Assembly: GCA_001630475.1 (NCBI GenBank)
Contig: KV419439.1
Span: forward strand, 5,100 to 45,120
Length of the DNA stretch: 40,021 nucleotides
Reading direction: 5' to 3'
Source of the DNA: Sistotremastrum niveocremeum HHB9708
Taxonomy: Eukaryota; Basidiomycota; Agaricomycetes; Sistotremastrales; Sistotremastraceae
The position numbers were made by a program, and so were the translations under genes. A model generated the notes under the pieces. The model was not told where the DNA came from and ran no database searches. It saw nothing but the letters and a program-made list of their open reading frames with translations. Shown here piece by piece: positions 19,734-39,393 of this stretch. How positions within the stretch are numbered: position 1 is the first letter of the stretch; every line of letters starts with the position of its first letter.

Positions 19734-20986
19734 CGTTGATCGTGGGTGGTTGAGTAGAGGGCAGCAGCGCGCAAAGACAAGTAATAAATAGACAAGGTCA
19801 GATATCGCGGTGTCCCGATGGGAGGATTCTCTCAATAGACCCTCAATGTTAAGCGAACAAGTGTAGCATTATGTAGACAATCACGAGGAGAACATGAGGC
19901 TGAGATGGTGGCGATCAGGTCACGAGCTTATCTTATCTGAACCTGGGGAACCATGGTCACGCTGGGAGAGCAGAGAAGTCCGCTAAGACTTGGAACCGGA
20001 GTTGAGAGGACTAGATGCATAGTCCCATCTAGAAATCTAGGGGTTCCCTGAGTTCGAGAAGGTCCAGAGCGTGTGCAGAGAAACCTGAATGACGAATGTC
20101 TCCCGCGACAAGCAAAATTATTGCGTTCCGGAGGCCATCATGTAGAACATTACGCGCTCAAGACACTCCTGTCAATCCCACGACTTTCTGTGATATGAAT
20201 GAATGGATCGTGCGGCGTGGGGAACCGGGAGGGCACCATACGGCAATCCCTGAGGCTAAGCAGAACGCAATCCATGGATCCACTTGACGCGTTCAGGGCT
20301 CCATAAGAAATACATGGCAGACATAATGCCAGCTTTAAGGATGAATGATAGTAGCTTTGACGAAAGGGAGTCGAGATTTGAGACCAGAGGACCAGAGACC
20401 TTGATGGACCGGAACCCGAAGAAGTGAAGTCGATCGTTGGATCCGGCGCTTATTATTATTTGTCGCTTCCGTACTTGTTTCTTAAGGAAAGTAGGTGTCG
20501 TCAGATAGGACCAGTGAACCTTCTGGAATTATCGGGCATGGAGCAAAATGTCGCGGTCGAGCTGCTCCTGATCCACGTGCACCGTCAAACCGGTAGGCAA
20601 TGCGCAGTGCCAGTGAACGAGCGAGGTCTCGCTGAGCCTGACAAAAATTGGCAGTCGAAGACTGAGAGACCACACCAGACGGTTCACCATATTATCACGA
20701 AGCTCTGATGTCCTTCATGAACCAACCAGCAAAAGCACGTTGTCACGAATACCTAAACGGCCACGGAAGCACCCTGATAAATAGTAGAAATAGAAAATCG
20801 TACAACTGACTAACGATATGACTCTGATCATAAATTAATCATAGAAGGCTCTCTGTGCGATTTCAAAGCTGGCATTGCACAATGAAATGAAAGATACTCG
20901 AGTAGGACCATGGCATCGTGACAGCGTTTAGGAACGAACACCGGAGCTGAAGCCGATAATCCCGAGAATGTTTTGTCTTCTCGACC
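19734..20986. other. intergenic, transition to repeat-rich half
   Basis: About 1.25 kb without a supported gene. Open stretches at 20424-20708 (plus) and 20482-20673 (minus) overlap each other and show no motif. The region includes the promoter of the oxygenase-like gene. It ends at the target duplication of the retroposon insertion. Confidence 0.45.
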
Positions 20987-20997
20987 GTGACCAACTC

Positions 20998-21151
20998 TTT
21001 ATCATGAATACAAACCCTGAACGGCATCACTCGCCTACCATCCACTCAAAGATCTTCACAATCAGAGAGCCAGGTACTAGAGGAGATGACGAACAGGGGT
21101 AGATCGGAAGCAGGGGAAATTTCCCAAAAAGAATGCTAAGGATGCTGATAC
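20998..21151. repeat. left arm of 154-bp perfect inverted repeat
   Basis: Exact reverse complement of the right arm, which is split as 21164-21254 plus 22018-22080 by the MITE. The spacer between arms is 21152-21163. Identity over the 154 bp appears complete by eye. Confidence 0.9.
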
Positions 21152-21163
21152 TGGCCGTTTTCG

Positions 21164-22080
21164 GTATCAGCATCCTTAGCATTCTTTTTGGGAAATTTCC
21201 CCTGCTTCCGATCTACCCCTGTTCGTCATCTCCTCTAGTACCTGGCTCTCTGATTAAGGATCCCCATGGGCTATATCCTAGGATAAGGATATCCCCAGAA
21301 TTTCTCGGAGGCCCATCCCCCATCCTCGGATAAAATGGCGGGGATATCCGAGATTTTCGGGGATATCCGAGCTTATCCGGATCATCCTAGGATATTAATA
21401 TATATATTATTTGTTTTAATATATATTAATTTTCGAATATATATATTATTTTCACTATTTACATATGTGTTCCCGCGATCCGATCGTGATAAAACTTGAT
21501 CAAACACGATCAACAAACGACGCGGACTGTTTTCAAACTCAGCTGTTCGTCCCCTGCCTCTCTCCAACACCACCGACCGGCCTCAAGCATCGTTTGGACC
21601 CCCTTCCTCATCAACAACCTCGCTCAGCAACCTCAAGACAGTGTGGAGACATCTAGAGAAGACTGTTAGTGGTGGAAATGGGCAGCTTGGGGATGGATTG
21701 GCTGATGGATGGCTGGATGTAGGGCTGGATGAAGGCTGCAGGCTGTGGTGAGGTCCGAAAAAATAAAATAAAATAATAAATATAATCGAAAATGTATATA
21801 TAAATGATTAAAATAATAATATATATAATATAAAATAATAAATAAAATAATAAATATATTAATATATATCCGGATATCCTCGAAAATCCAGGCCCTCCAT
21901 CCTCCATCCTCGGATGGGCCCTGTCACGGCTATCCTGTCACGCGGATATCCTGTCACACGGATAATCCCCCAGGGATAGCCGGATGGCCGTAGCCCGTGG
22001 GGAACCTTATCTCTGATTGTGAAGATCTTTGAGTGGATGGTAGGCGAGTGATGCCGTTCAGGGTTTGTATTCATGATAAA
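21164..22080. repeat. right arm of the inverted repeat, interrupted by a MITE
   Basis: The arm comprises 21164-21254 and 22018-22080 (91 + 63 = 154 bp). Removing the MITE and one copy of its 8-bp target duplication restores an exact complement of the left arm, which independently confirms the MITE borders. Confidence 0.9.
21255..22009. mobile_element. hAT-type MITE, 755 bp, non-autonomous
   Basis: Imperfect terminal inverted repeats, TAAGGATCCCCATGGGCTA at the left and TAAGGTTCCCCACGGGCTA at the right (reverse complement), match at 17 of 19 positions. They are flanked by the 8-bp direct repeat TCTCTGAT (21247-21254 and 22010-22017), the duplication length typical of the hAT superfamily. Subterminal regions are filled with GGATAT/ATATCC and GATCC-like motifs. 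The centre (about 21385-21870) is very AT-rich, with TATATA and AATAAA runs. No transposase is encoded. Confidence 0.82.
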
Positions 22081-22193
22081 TTATTACATATCTCTATTGC
22101 TTTGTACCTTAGTTAGCCGTCTACCATAGGCACCTCTGTGCCTCGAGGACGTTAATTGAATTTGTTGTTGTTGTTGTTGTTGTGACCAACTCT

Positions 22194-22829
22194 CAGAAGG
22201 CTTATCTAAAGCTTGCTCTTGTCAAAAGGCACCAAGATGGTGCGCCTCTTGACGCAATATTTGCCTTCGTCATATCCCGGAATTCGCATTCTGATGGGCC
22301 ATCCGACGACTTGAAAGGACGAGCCATCCATGAATTCCATACTTTCATCCAATTCGAACATTATCGTGTCGACAGATCCGCACCCCGCTGCAGTGTATTC
22401 GTGACAATGAAGATTCCAGGTATCTGGACTTCCTGCGGTCCGATATGAAATGCTGCACCCAAAGATCTCGAAGACTCGGGTTTGCTCGCTCTGGGAATAT
22501 AACCTGCTAATGCCGTGCCGGTCCCTGCGTTCAATAAGGGATCATCGCATGATCCATCGTGATGGGTGAGATTCGGCTTTCTGGTGTCTGATTTGGCTCA
22601 TGATGAATTCATTCGTACACAGCCAACGCTCATCCTTTTCTGCGGCGATTGTATAACACCGGGAGGAAGCAAACCAATCCACAAAGAGATGCCGACGTAC
22701 ATGCTCTGCAAGATATAAGATTGACTGGGTAACACACAACTCCCTCAATCAGTTCCTCGCAATAGCTACTCAGGTACGATTGCTTTCGGCTCACATATTT
22801 TATCGGGGTAAACTGATGTTGTCATTAGC
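22194..22829. other. intergenic / promoter of metalloprotease-lectin gene 1
   Basis: An open stretch of about 88 codons (22182-22448, plus) begins inside the target duplication and has no recognisable motif. It may be part of whatever the retroposon inserted into. The sequence just before 22830 (TTGTCATTAGC) looks like an acceptor, so a non-coding or short first exon of the protease gene is possible. Confidence 0.4.
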
Positions 22830-24386
22830 ATGGGCAATGAAGATGAAGTTTCGTCTTGTGGCTTCCGCCTCCCCGATACACCAGTTCAGGTCGATGACTC
22901 CAATGAAAATACATATACCACGATGCGCCTGGCTCATGGCAAAAACTGGAAGTGGCCAAATGGATCAACATTACGTATCAAGTTCTTAGATGGTACTGAA
23001 GAGCAACATCGCAGGGTATGCTGTACAGCCTCTTTATGCTTTGCTATCCTGACTGTCGTTTTGAAGGTCAAAAAGCATGCCGCTGAATGGCTCAAATATG
23101 CGTATCTCGGCTTTTCATATGTCACCTCAGGGGACGCCGATATTCGCATCTCTTTCGACCCCAATGGCGGTCACAATTCGAAACTCGGCACAAATAGTGC
23201 CCGCAACCAGAACGAGAAGTCGATGAATCTAGCCATGAAGTCCTGGCACACGGATCACGATTCACGCGAATACATCCTTCACGAATTCGGTCACGCTCTC
23301 GGCTGCATCCATGAGCAAGCCAGACCTGATGTACCGATTAAGTGGAACAAGGATGCCGTCTACAAGCATTATGCGAAACCACCAAACAAATGGACGACGA
23401 AAGATGTCGACTGGAACGTATTCAAGAAATACGACGCCGACAAGATCATCACATCCTCTTATTGGGATTCCACCTCCATCATGCAGTACGCCGTTCCAAA
23501 GGGCTTAACTACCGACGGGTGGTGGTGCCCTTGGAATACGGAACTCTCCAGCGCCGACAAAGCTTTCATCGCTAGCATGTATCCCTCGCCCACCGTCCTG
23601 AATTTGCAGACCGTCAGTCGTCCAATGTCCAAGGGCAACATGCAGAGAATCAAGGCAACTGGTGTACATACTTCTAATGTCCGTGCTGGCATAACTGGAC
23701 TAGAAACAGTTGCGGACTCTTCTGCACCCCGCCGGGATAAACTCAACTTCACGATGGCCAATTGGGAGGAGGACTCGAAGATCGAAGTGGAGGCGTATCC
23801 CTACCAGGATACCTACATGTACAACGTTGCTGTGTCAGCCATCGACTTGGTCCACGACGTCGATTTTCAGAGCGGACAACAACACGTCGCTTGTCCCAGC
23901 TCGAAGAAACCTACGAAAGTCTGGGTCGAGTTCGAAAAATCGTACAAGGACGCTCCGGAGGTGATTACCTTCATCAACTCCTTCCAGCTCGAGAATGAGT
24001 GGGTGATGAAAGTTTGGCCCGAGGGGATCACCAAGGATGGGTTCTGGCTCTGCTCTCAAAATTATGACCCGTCCAATCTTCATAGTTTGGACGCGCAATG
24101 GATCTCAATCCCGGCAAGACGAGGAGCTCCTCGCACTGGGACGTTCGCTGGCACTATGTTGAACGACTTTAAGGGTCACGTAGAGTTCAAGAGGAGATTC
24201 ACAAAGCCTCCGCTCCTCTTCGTTGCTCTTAGCCAACTGGATGCTGATAGCAAGCACTTCTTGCGCTTCCGTATCGTAACGACCAAATTGACGGAGTACG
24301 GATTTGAGTGGGAGGTGAACAGCTGGTGGGACTCTATAAACGCCATAGTCGGGGCTTCCTATCTGGCCTTGGAACCTTGGTCGTAA
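22830..24386 (+). CDS. metzincin zinc protease fused to H-type-lectin-like domain (paralogue 1)
   Basis: Predicted 501 aa with the 51-nt intron 23016-23066 removed (518 if retained, since the intron is stop-free and a multiple of three). Residues ~35-260 form an astacin/metzincin-like protease: WKWPNGSTLRIKFLDG start, zinc motif HEFGHALGCIHE (His134, His138, His144; catalytic Glu135) and Met-turn SIMQYAVP. The C-terminal half contains two segments resembling H-type lectin repeats: KVWVEFEKSYKDAPEVITF with FQLENEWVMKVWPE, and GHVEFKRRFTKPPLLFVAL, ending in YGFEWEVNSWWDS and GASYLALEP. No signal peptide or propeptide cysteine switch is visible, so the protein may stay inside the cell or leave by a non-classical route. 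It faces a close paralogue (24946-26550). Role in defence or carbohydrate-targeted proteolysis is inference only. Confidence 0.85.
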   Translation: MGNEDEVSSCGFRLPDTPVQVDDSNENTYTTMRLAHGKNWKWPNGSTLRIKFLDGTEEQHRRVCCTASLCFAILTVVLKVKKHAAEWLKYAYLGFSYVTSGDADIRISFDPNGGHNSKLGTNSARNQNEKSMNLAMKSWHTDHDSREYILHEFGHALGCIHEQARPDVPIKWNKDAVYKHYAKPPNKWTTKDVDWNVFKKYDADKIITSSYWDSTSIMQYAVPKGLTTDGWWCPWNTELSSADKAFIASMYPSPTVLNLQTVSRPMSKGNMQRIKATGVHTSNVRAGITGLETVADSSAPRRDKLNFTMANWEEDSKIEVEAYPYQDTYMYNVAVSAIDLVHDVDFQSGQQHVACPSSKKPTKVWVEFEKSYKDAPEVITFINSFQLENEWVMKVWPEGITKDGFWLCSQNYDPSNLHSLDAQWISIPARRGAPRTGTFAGTMLNDFKGHVEFKRRFTKPPLLFVALSQLDADSKHFLRFRIVTTKLTEYGFEWEVNSWWDSINAIVGASYLALEPWS

Positions 24387-24945: not shown

Positions 24946-26550
24946 CTACAACTTCGTGGAAACCCGTTCTCCTGATGACCCTGACAGGCACGGCGAGTGC
25001 TCCAATGCAAGGTACGATGCCCCGATTGCATTGTTTTTGGAATCCCACCAACTTTCTACCCTCCAATCGAATCCATACTCTGTAACGTTTTTTGTTACGA
25101 TCCGGAAGCGCAAAGGATGCTTGCTATCCGCGTCAAGCTCGTTCAATGCAACGAAGAGGAAAGGGGTTCCACTGAATTTCGTAGGGAACGTGACATGTCC
25201 CTTGAATTCGTTCTCTTCCGTGCCGACGAACGTCCCGGTGTGGCGACCCAATCGACCCTTCGACGAGATCCAAGCGACGACTAGGTTTCGCAGATTGGAA
25301 GGACCGGAGTTCTGCGAGCAAAGCCAGAACCCGACCTTGTCGATCGACTCGGGCCACACTTTGATCAACCACTCATTCTCGATTGAGAACGAATGGACGA
25401 AGGTCGCCACGTTCGGGACGTCATTGTACGGTTTATCGAACTCGACCCACACCTTCGAGAGCCTCTGCGAACTACAGCAAGTGACGTGCTCTTGCCCACT
25501 TTGAGTTTCGGTGTCGCTGACGGTGTCAACGACTGAAAGAGCGGCATGGCACACGCATGTGTCCTCGTCGGGTTTAATCTTCACTACTGTCTCCGAGTCG
25601 CGGGACAGATCACGCATGGTGAAGCTGAGTTTATCCACATGTTGGCCCGAGCGATCTGCAAGCTCCAAGCCCGTGATGCCGACCTGAATATCTGCCGTCT
25701 TCAGACCAGACACTTTGACCTGCTGTACTTCGCCTTTCGCAATGGGAGGATCGAGTCGACATGAGGTCAAGAGGTCTACGACCACGGGAGGGGGGTACAT
25801 GGTCGCGATGAAGGACTTGTCGTAGGATGATAGTTTGTTGTTCGAAGGATAGGACTTCGCACCGTCCGTCCATGCCTTGTCGATTGGGTATAGCATGATC
25901 GATTTGGAATCCCAATCAGGAGACATTGTGACCTCTTCTCGAGTCCACCGAGACAGGACATCTCGCTCGACCATTGCATGTGGCCAGGAATTCGGTGGGC
26001 CCGCGAAGTACGCACACACTGCGGGTTCGTTCCACTGAAACGGAGTATCGGGGCGGCAATGTTCATGGATGCAGCCCAGAGCGTGACCGACTTCGTGAAG
26101 GACGCCTGCGCGTGAATCGTCGAGGTCTGAATTCTTGCATCCAATGGCTAGGTTCATGGTAGGCTTAGAGTCGTCACCGGGAGTAGCTCGACCAACAGAT
26201 GACCACCAGCCGTCATGAAGATCAAACGCGATACGGATATCGGCCCCTTCGGATTCGACGAACACGAATCTGAGGTACGCATGCTTCGCCCATTCGGAGA
26301 AGCACTTCTTGACCTGAAGAGTTTAGCAGGATGAGGTGTTAGCTCAAGGAAGAAGTTGGCAACATACTAAATTACGCTGGTGATCAGAGGCGTCCACGAG
26401 CTTGACGCGGAGTGTAGCTCCATTGGGCCATCTATGCTCTTTCAGATAAGCAAGTCGGAGTGGTTTGCAGTCTTGGTGGCTATCGGTTGATTCCCGGTTA
26501 TTGGGAGTCTGAGAGTTCAATGATAGGATGTTGCAGTCGGGCGTGGTCAT
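24946..26550 (-). CDS. metzincin zinc protease fused to H-type-lectin-like domain (paralogue 2)
   Basis: Predicted 516 aa. Exons: 26550-26368 and 26313-24946, with a 54-nt intron at the same place as in paralogue 1. The protease has HEVGHALGCIHE at the same residue numbers (His134, Glu135, His138, His144) and Met-turn SIMLYPID. The lectin-like half repeats the paralogue's plan: KVWVEFDKPYNDVPNVATF, IENEWLIKVWPES, GHVTFPTKFSGTPFLFVALNELD, NVTEYGFDWRVESWWDS and IGASYLALE. A C-terminal tail of about 18 residues is not shared with paralogue 1. The start at 26550 gives MTTPDCNILSLN with no signal peptide; a longer start at 26628 would not add one. All catalytic residues are present, so both copies appear functional. 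The pair shares intron position and architecture, which points to local duplication with inversion. Confidence 0.85.
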
Positions 26551-39134: not shown

Positions 39135-39393
39135 ATGTCTTCATTCGTTCACCTCCCTGTGACTTTCGACTCTTCGAAGCATCACTACACCGTTATGGCC
39201 CATAGCTATGTGCCGTCGTACCCGCAATCCTATCCTCTCAAGCTTCCCGCAATCCTATCCTCTCAAGCTTGACGATACGCTTCTCACCACCTTTTGGGCC
39301 CTCTTGGTCGTGTCATATATTATTGTGACTATTGATGTACTGTCTATCGTCCACTCTCTCATTCTCCTGTCTCAACCCTTGTCGCATCATTAG
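39135..39393 (+). pseudogene. reading frame broken by a 25-bp tandem duplication
   Basis: After a pyrimidine-rich leader (39050-39130) a frame opens with MSSFVHLPVTFDSSKHHYT and runs to a short end because a 25-bp unit is duplicated at 39221-39270. Beyond the duplication a different frame carries a hydrophobic, membrane-helix-like segment (LLTTFWALLVVSYIIVTIDV) up to 39393. The shift equals the duplication length modulo 3, so the two parts were probably one frame before it. Family not recognised; a longer gene with downstream exons is possible. Confidence 0.4.
39221..39270. repeat. perfect 2 x 25-bp tandem duplication
   Basis: The unit beginning CCCGCAATCCTATCCTCTCA and ending AGCTT occurs twice without a mismatch (39221-39245 and 39246-39270). 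Confidence 0.95.

Follow-up and report, generated by a model that had tools for sequence, protein, structure and literature searches.

It is not settled how target-primed insertions close their 5′ junction. In the window studied here, a 40,021-nt stretch of Sistotremastrum niveocremeum HHB9708 (contig KV419439.1), this question is raised by an insertion that begins with an inverted copy of its own 5′ part: how did that copy arise, and at which point in the history of the locus?

Structure of the composite insertion

Direct reading of the sequence identified 20987-22193 as a single composite insertion between two copies of GTGACCAACTCT, a target duplication (TSD). The features, in order, are:

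20987..20998, + strand: left TSD GTGACCAACTCT, 12-bp direct repeat
20998..21151, − strand: inverted (antisense) copy of the 5′ part of the element, 154 nt (left arm); first base T common to the TSD (1-nt microhomology); pre-MITE empty site kept
21152..21163, + strand: 12-nt spacer (hairpin loop) TGGCCGTTTTCG
21164..21254, + strand: 5′ portion of the retroposon body, forming the initial part of the right arm; ends with the left MITE TSD
21247..21254, + strand: left 8-bp TSD of the nested MITE, TCTCTGAT
21255..22009, no strand assigned: nested 755-bp hAT-like MITE, ends TAAGG...CCTTA, flanked by TCTCTGAT
22010..22017, + strand: right 8-bp TSD of the nested MITE, TCTCTGAT
22018..22161, + strand: 3′ portion of the retroposon body; contains the remainder of the right arm (22018-22080)
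22162..22182, + strand: (TTG)7 tail; last G is the first base of the right TSD
22182..22193, + strand: right TSD GTGACCAACTCT, 12-bp direct repeat

The match between the two GTGACCAACTCT copies does not extend beyond 12 bp on either side. One TSD copy abuts the antisense arm and the other abuts the TTG tail, which places arm and body within one insertion. Moreover, the left arm begins inside the element, directly at the TSD and not at the tail; thus, it was not primed on the TTG tail. The right flank (22182-23200) occurs once in the assembly (34.7 Mb, 111 contigs), and no second haplotype for it was found there. The 267-nt body has no long frame, as would also be the case for a truncated or non-autonomous copy. 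It has no match to simple A-box or B-box patterns on either strand (a test of low sensitivity), and ARAGORN in bacterial mode found no tRNA in the window.

We found that 20998-21151 is the reverse complement of 21164-21254 joined to 22018-22080 over 154 nt with 0 mismatches, and that the arms meet at the center across 12 nt. In the contiguous DNA, the repeat finder reported two perfect pairs, one of 92 nt (21060-21151/21164-21255, 12 nt apart) and one of 71 nt (20998-21068/22010-22080). The description as a 154-bp perfect inverted repeat therefore holds only when the 755-bp middle is removed together with one of the two 8-bp TSD copies that flank it, as was already implied by the joined body coordinates in the initial annotation. 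The 12-bp direct repeat, the (TTG)7 tail, and the 154-bp inverted repeat with its 12-nt spacer, all described there, were confirmed by their coordinates. A chance origin of the inverted repeat is excluded by its length alone. Among the 136 inverted 16-mer pairs lying up to 3 kb apart in the window, 133 start in 20900-22200, of which some may belong to the A+T-rich MITE. Against 200 shuffles, the DNA fold of 20998-21255 scores z = −25.7. The absence of differences in 154 bp bounds the pairwise divergence at about 1.9% (95%). For the view that perfect arms imply a young event, this figure sets a bound only, and arm-to-arm gene conversion could also have kept the arms alike.

A search of 20800-22400 against Rfam gave eight matches with E up to 1 (mir-1263, MIR408, snoR125, and others), all under their gathering scores. 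Those that cover the arms are to be expected from a long perfect hairpin, and these candidates were rejected.

The boundaries bear on the possibility that the arm is a DNA-level inverted duplication, formed after insertion by replication slippage or fold-back repair. In the survey excerpted from PMC12350158, inverted duplications, mostly with 1-15 bp of microhomology, were the commonest class of human inversions outside mobile-element insertions (277 of 733). Here, however, such a duplication would have had to end by coincidence at the inner edge of the TSD, which is the old 5′ junction, and we regard this origin as improbable.

Elsewhere in the window, two convergent paralogous genes (22830-24386, + strand, and 24946-26265, − strand) each contain an astacin-like metalloprotease part and an H-type lectin domain, with 51% identity over 423 aligned columns. 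A perfect 25-bp tandem duplication is present at 39221-39270, and an RRN3 gene was identified.

The nested MITE and the order of events

The 755-bp middle belongs to a multicopy family that is separate from the retroposon, with 53 matches in the assembly, of which many are incomplete or weak or lie on the opposite strand. The copies examined were the 12 matches that span both ends, including that of the window, with the other 41 of the 53 left aside. All 12 have TAAGG...CCTTA ends and an 8-bp TSD, at lengths of 745-802 bp. Their identity to 21255-22009 is 79-90%, and several also match on the opposite strand. We take these ends together with an 8-bp TSD to be a hAT MITE signature, and 21255-22009 has the 8-bp TSD, the short terminal inverted repeats, and the multicopy nature of such elements. 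The hAT dimerization domain has 21 matches in the assembly.

The left arm runs uninterrupted across the MITE insertion point (ACCTGGCTCTCTGATTGTGAAGAT as reverse complement) and thus preserves the empty site of the MITE. Because this empty site is kept, the arm is older than the MITE and was copied from MITE-less sequence. The MITE entered the right arm only, after the hairpin had formed.

Perfect palindromes are a known artifact class, and the hairpin might accordingly stem from hairpin read-through in reads or assembly. However, MITE sequence would be expected in a fold-back of the locus as it now stands, whereas the left arm has none and holds the exact empty site. The arm also ends at the TSD. 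An artifact is therefore very improbable, more so than any other origin considered here.

A small family of tailed copies at GTGAC

A search of the assembly with 22018-22181 returned the element's own two parts and copies at three other places, namely, C57 (89 bp, 99%), C8 (81 bp, 100%), and C15 (30 bp, 100%). These copies have the 3′ end of the body portion 22018-22161 in common and are 29-91 bp long with the tail included. All three are 3′-anchored and truncated at differing points on the 5′ side. Their tails, (TTG)8 at C57, (TTG)5 at C8, and (TTG)4 at C15, are followed by TGAC. Exact TSDs were found at C57 (GTGACACTGTGTC, 13 bp) and C15 (GTGACAGA, 8 bp), while the evidence at C8 is weak, with only GTGACA repeating exactly in the flank (6-7 bp). 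At the left junctions, 2 nt at C57, 2 nt at C15, and 1 nt in the window fit both target and body.

The target begins with GTGAC in all four tailed copies. The probability that the three further copies share this motif by chance is about 2 × 10^−9, a post hoc value derived from 49 occurrences in the window (+ strand). The tail-plus-target word TTGTTGTTGTTGTGAC has four exact occurrences in the 34.7-Mb assembly, all in this retroposon family (reversed control, 0). Allowing up to three mismatches in the 23-mer GAGGACGTTAATTGAATTTGTTG revealed no degenerate copies in the assembly beyond the same four places (control, 0). The shorter word (TTG)3TGAC occurs at six places, these four plus C5 and C91 (control, 4). 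Over the 300 bp upstream, C5 and C91 do not otherwise resemble the family, and given the four control matches both were taken as chance. (TTG)5 words have 42 matches compared with 32 in the control, so TTG runs as such mean little.

A 165-nt query consisting of the arm and spacer, searched with E up to 10 for a longer copy or source gene, found only the element itself and a fragment at C3. The latter is a 49-bp relative of the 5′ body (94%) that begins directly after CCGTGAC; a run of N and another short inverted-repeat element obscure its 3′ side. This short element (L003:1340-1492) has inverted ends AGGTCACCTCAGCT.../...AGCTGAGGTGACCT and adjoins both the C3 fragment and the run of N.

GTGAC starts all five family places (C57, C8, C15, C3, and the window), preceded by ACC in three of the five and by ACC or ACT in four. 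This motif and its ACC/ACT context point to a putative sequence-preferring endonuclease.

These copies also bear on whether the inverted arm belongs to the element itself, in the form of a hairpin template RNA or of a foldback or Penelope-like structure with a regular head-to-head inverted end. Rotifer Penelope elements with an inverted pLTR resemble the present case: according to PMC3846280, they often have head-to-head inverted terminal repeats at the 5′ end together with TSDs, a structure ascribed to self-priming. No other copy in our family is long enough to exclude such a form. On the other hand, the copies at C57, C8, and C15 join the target directly without an arm. They are too short to reach the arm-covered parts, and the full-length form is not thereby revealed. 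In Penelope-like elements, the inverted end is recurrent and a hammerhead lies in the terminal repeat, whereas the window element has no long frame, and no hammerhead was found among the eight Rfam matches in 20800-22400. The same paper describes protist and fungal genomes as holding only endonuclease-deficient Penelope elements without such a structure. A foldback DNA transposon would have long inverted repeats at both ends, while here the inverted copy is present on one side only and its partner, the right arm, stops at 22080, about 100 bp before the tail end (22182), so the element is no such transposon. We therefore consider it unlikely that the arm is part of the element. The initial annotation had named many 3′-anchored (TTG)n copies, mostly without the inverted part, as support for its reading. 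The copies proved to be few, with three others found, and all three are without the arm, although their shortness makes this a weak test.

Origin of the inverted arm

The insertion and its relatives have the features of a non-LTR type retroposon inserted by target-primed reverse transcription, namely, a TSD, a simple-repeat 3′ tail at the target, and 3′-anchored copies of varying truncation. The tail, the TSD, and the 3′-anchored truncation place the event in target-primed reverse transcription. This agrees with the initial annotation, with the relatives located at GTGAC and the arm lying inside the same TSD. For the arm, we favor, with a probability of about 0.6, a cDNA end that folded back, used its own sequence as template for 154 nt, and only then joined the target, which corresponds to a snap-back 5′ junction.

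The element would be a non-autonomous or 5′-truncated non-LTR retroposon with a GTGAC target. A bottom-strand nick beside GTGAC would prime cDNA synthesis on an RNA ending in (UUG)n. At the end of the cDNA, its 3′ terminus may have folded back and paired with sequence close to its own end across a loop of about 12 nt. Extension by about 154 nt, with the cDNA itself as template, would have followed. The extended end would then have been joined, through about 1 nt of microhomology, to the target strand upstream, which would give the 12-bp duplication. A hAT-like MITE later entered the right arm only. We infer the formation of the arm during insertion and the self-priming of the cDNA, as well as the polymerase involved, which may be the reverse transcriptase of the element or a host end-joining polymerase.

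Fold-back and self-copying of the cDNA would account at once for the join at 1 nt of microhomology and for a hairpin that is perfect, has a short loop, and ends at an arbitrary point. Arms that meet across 12 nt at the center follow automatically from self-priming. Priming complementarity at the edge of the loop is uninformative, since the copying itself creates it. Several points weigh against snap-back: no other full-length copy was found to mark the RNA 5′ end or to show whether the spacer is templated, no TTG-tailed enzyme source was found among the reverse transcriptase (RT) loci with their 3′ side seen, and the C8 copy has an exact flank repeat of only 6-7 bp. In addition, the same product would result if two cDNAs, one per target end, both reached the RNA 5′ end.

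The last point describes twin priming with complete overlap. The top-strand target end would prime inside the RNA about 154 nt from its 5′ end, and the bottom-strand cDNA would run from the tail. Strand displacement, or the use of two RNA molecules, would let both cDNAs reach the RNA 5′ end, and their ends would be joined head to head. Twin priming of L1 was reportedly described by Ostertag and Kazazian in 2001. The orientation and TSD are as this process predicts. According to excerpts of PMC12350158, PMC10191854, and PMC3024322, it produces a 5′ inversion inside one TSD-flanked insertion, in some cases with duplication at the breakpoint (reported for human L1 in the legend of Extended Data Fig. 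5 of PMC12350158). Short 5′ inversions were present in 29.5% of somatic L1 insertions in the survey excerpted from PMC10191854. However, ordinary twin priming splits the element between an inverted and a direct part that scarcely overlap, whereas here all 154 inverted nt recur in the right body, giving a perfect hairpin. Furthermore, the target end should find a match in the RNA from which to prime, and where the arm starts this match amounts to 1 nt; both cDNAs would also need to end within 12 nt of each other. A passage in PMC3024322 reports twin priming in 142 of 1421 truncated L1HS but 0 of 4056 AluYa5 and ascribes this to template length, which weighs slightly against twin priming if the template here was short. 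Twin priming is a possible origin of the arm, though clearly a less probable one than snap-back. At this locus the two cannot be told apart decisively, as neither a longer copy nor a TTG-tailed LINE nor an empty allele was found.

Snap-back 5′ junctions are known from R2-driven insertions. Section 9 of PMC11371274 (Zhang et al., 2024) defines them by synthesis that starts from the 3′ end of the cDNA and yields its complement, and reports upstream target joined to antisense insert. An excerpt of PMC11331408 gives the same definition and a low frequency. The window insertion agrees with this description, having an antisense copy of the same insert between the target and the 5′ end of the insert. 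In both systems, a cDNA 3′ end would prime DNA-templated synthesis on the cDNA, and an antisense insert is joined to upstream target (PRINT; PMC11371274 and PMC11331408, in the parts that treat these junctions). For one of two proteins, these parts place snap-back mainly after full-length cDNA synthesis. The R2 cases are engineered transgene insertions at rDNA in human cells, seen in sequencing reads at low frequency, whereas the window insertion is natural, is present in an assembly, and has a GTGAC target, a 12-bp TSD, and a TTG tail. For snap-back, PMC11371274 cites two references, one of them a polymerase theta paper; hence, a host polymerase may have carried out the extension.

Inverted duplications at 5′ ends have also been reported for somatic L1 insertions. 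An excerpt of PMC10191854 lists three foldback cases (0.3%) and one with both features (0.1%). These share the 5′-side inverted duplication with the window insertion, and the 154 bp observed here falls within the range of about 52-220 bp given for the extra DNA synthesis to which they are ascribed. However, the duplicated DNA in L1 is that upstream of the target site, whereas here it is the element itself. The remark in the initial annotation that this hairpin-ended form has no standard name is thus superseded. "Snap-back 5′ junction" is its name in the relevant parts of PMC11371274 and PMC11331408, and excerpts of PMC10191854 and PMC12350158 report duplicated inversions or inverted duplications at the 5′ ends of human L1 as well.

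Candidate enzyme sources

The assembly contains at least 30 RVT_1 matches. A Pfam scan of 20 of 30 RT loci identified LTR-type elements with integrase and RNase H domains as well as LINE-type proteins, and a PDB sequence search was applied to two RT loci. Neither (TTG)4 nor (CAA)4 was found within the ±1.5-kb loci of 30 RT matches. Likewise, no TTG tail was found in the extra 3′ stretches of six RT loci (one stretch half N), where the repeats present were one (AAC)6 and one (CCA)n-type run. The (AAC)6 (L079:541-558; C39:312040-312057) lies about 0.2 kb downstream of a LINE-type RT frame. At least one resident LINE may thus carry a terminal tail of CAA type, complementary to the TTG tail of the window insertion, and another LINE-type frame possibly ends in (CCA)n. 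The driver of the family may be lost, unassembled, masked, or among the RT loci with 3′ ends beyond those reached.

Implications

No natural insertion of exactly this form was recognized among the descriptions in the open-access literature searched. The window insertion is real, clean, and natural, and its junction is most likely of a known kind. There is also a slim chance that it represents a lineage with GTGAC preference and a (TTG)n tail in which cDNA self-priming for the second strand is recurrent and hairpin-ended insertions are a regular product. As a natural snap-back-like product that is time-ordered by the preserved empty site of a MITE, it suggests that this pathway acts beyond engineered R2 insertions. 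A GTGAC-targeted, TTG-tailed family would add a small case of sequence-preferring insertion.
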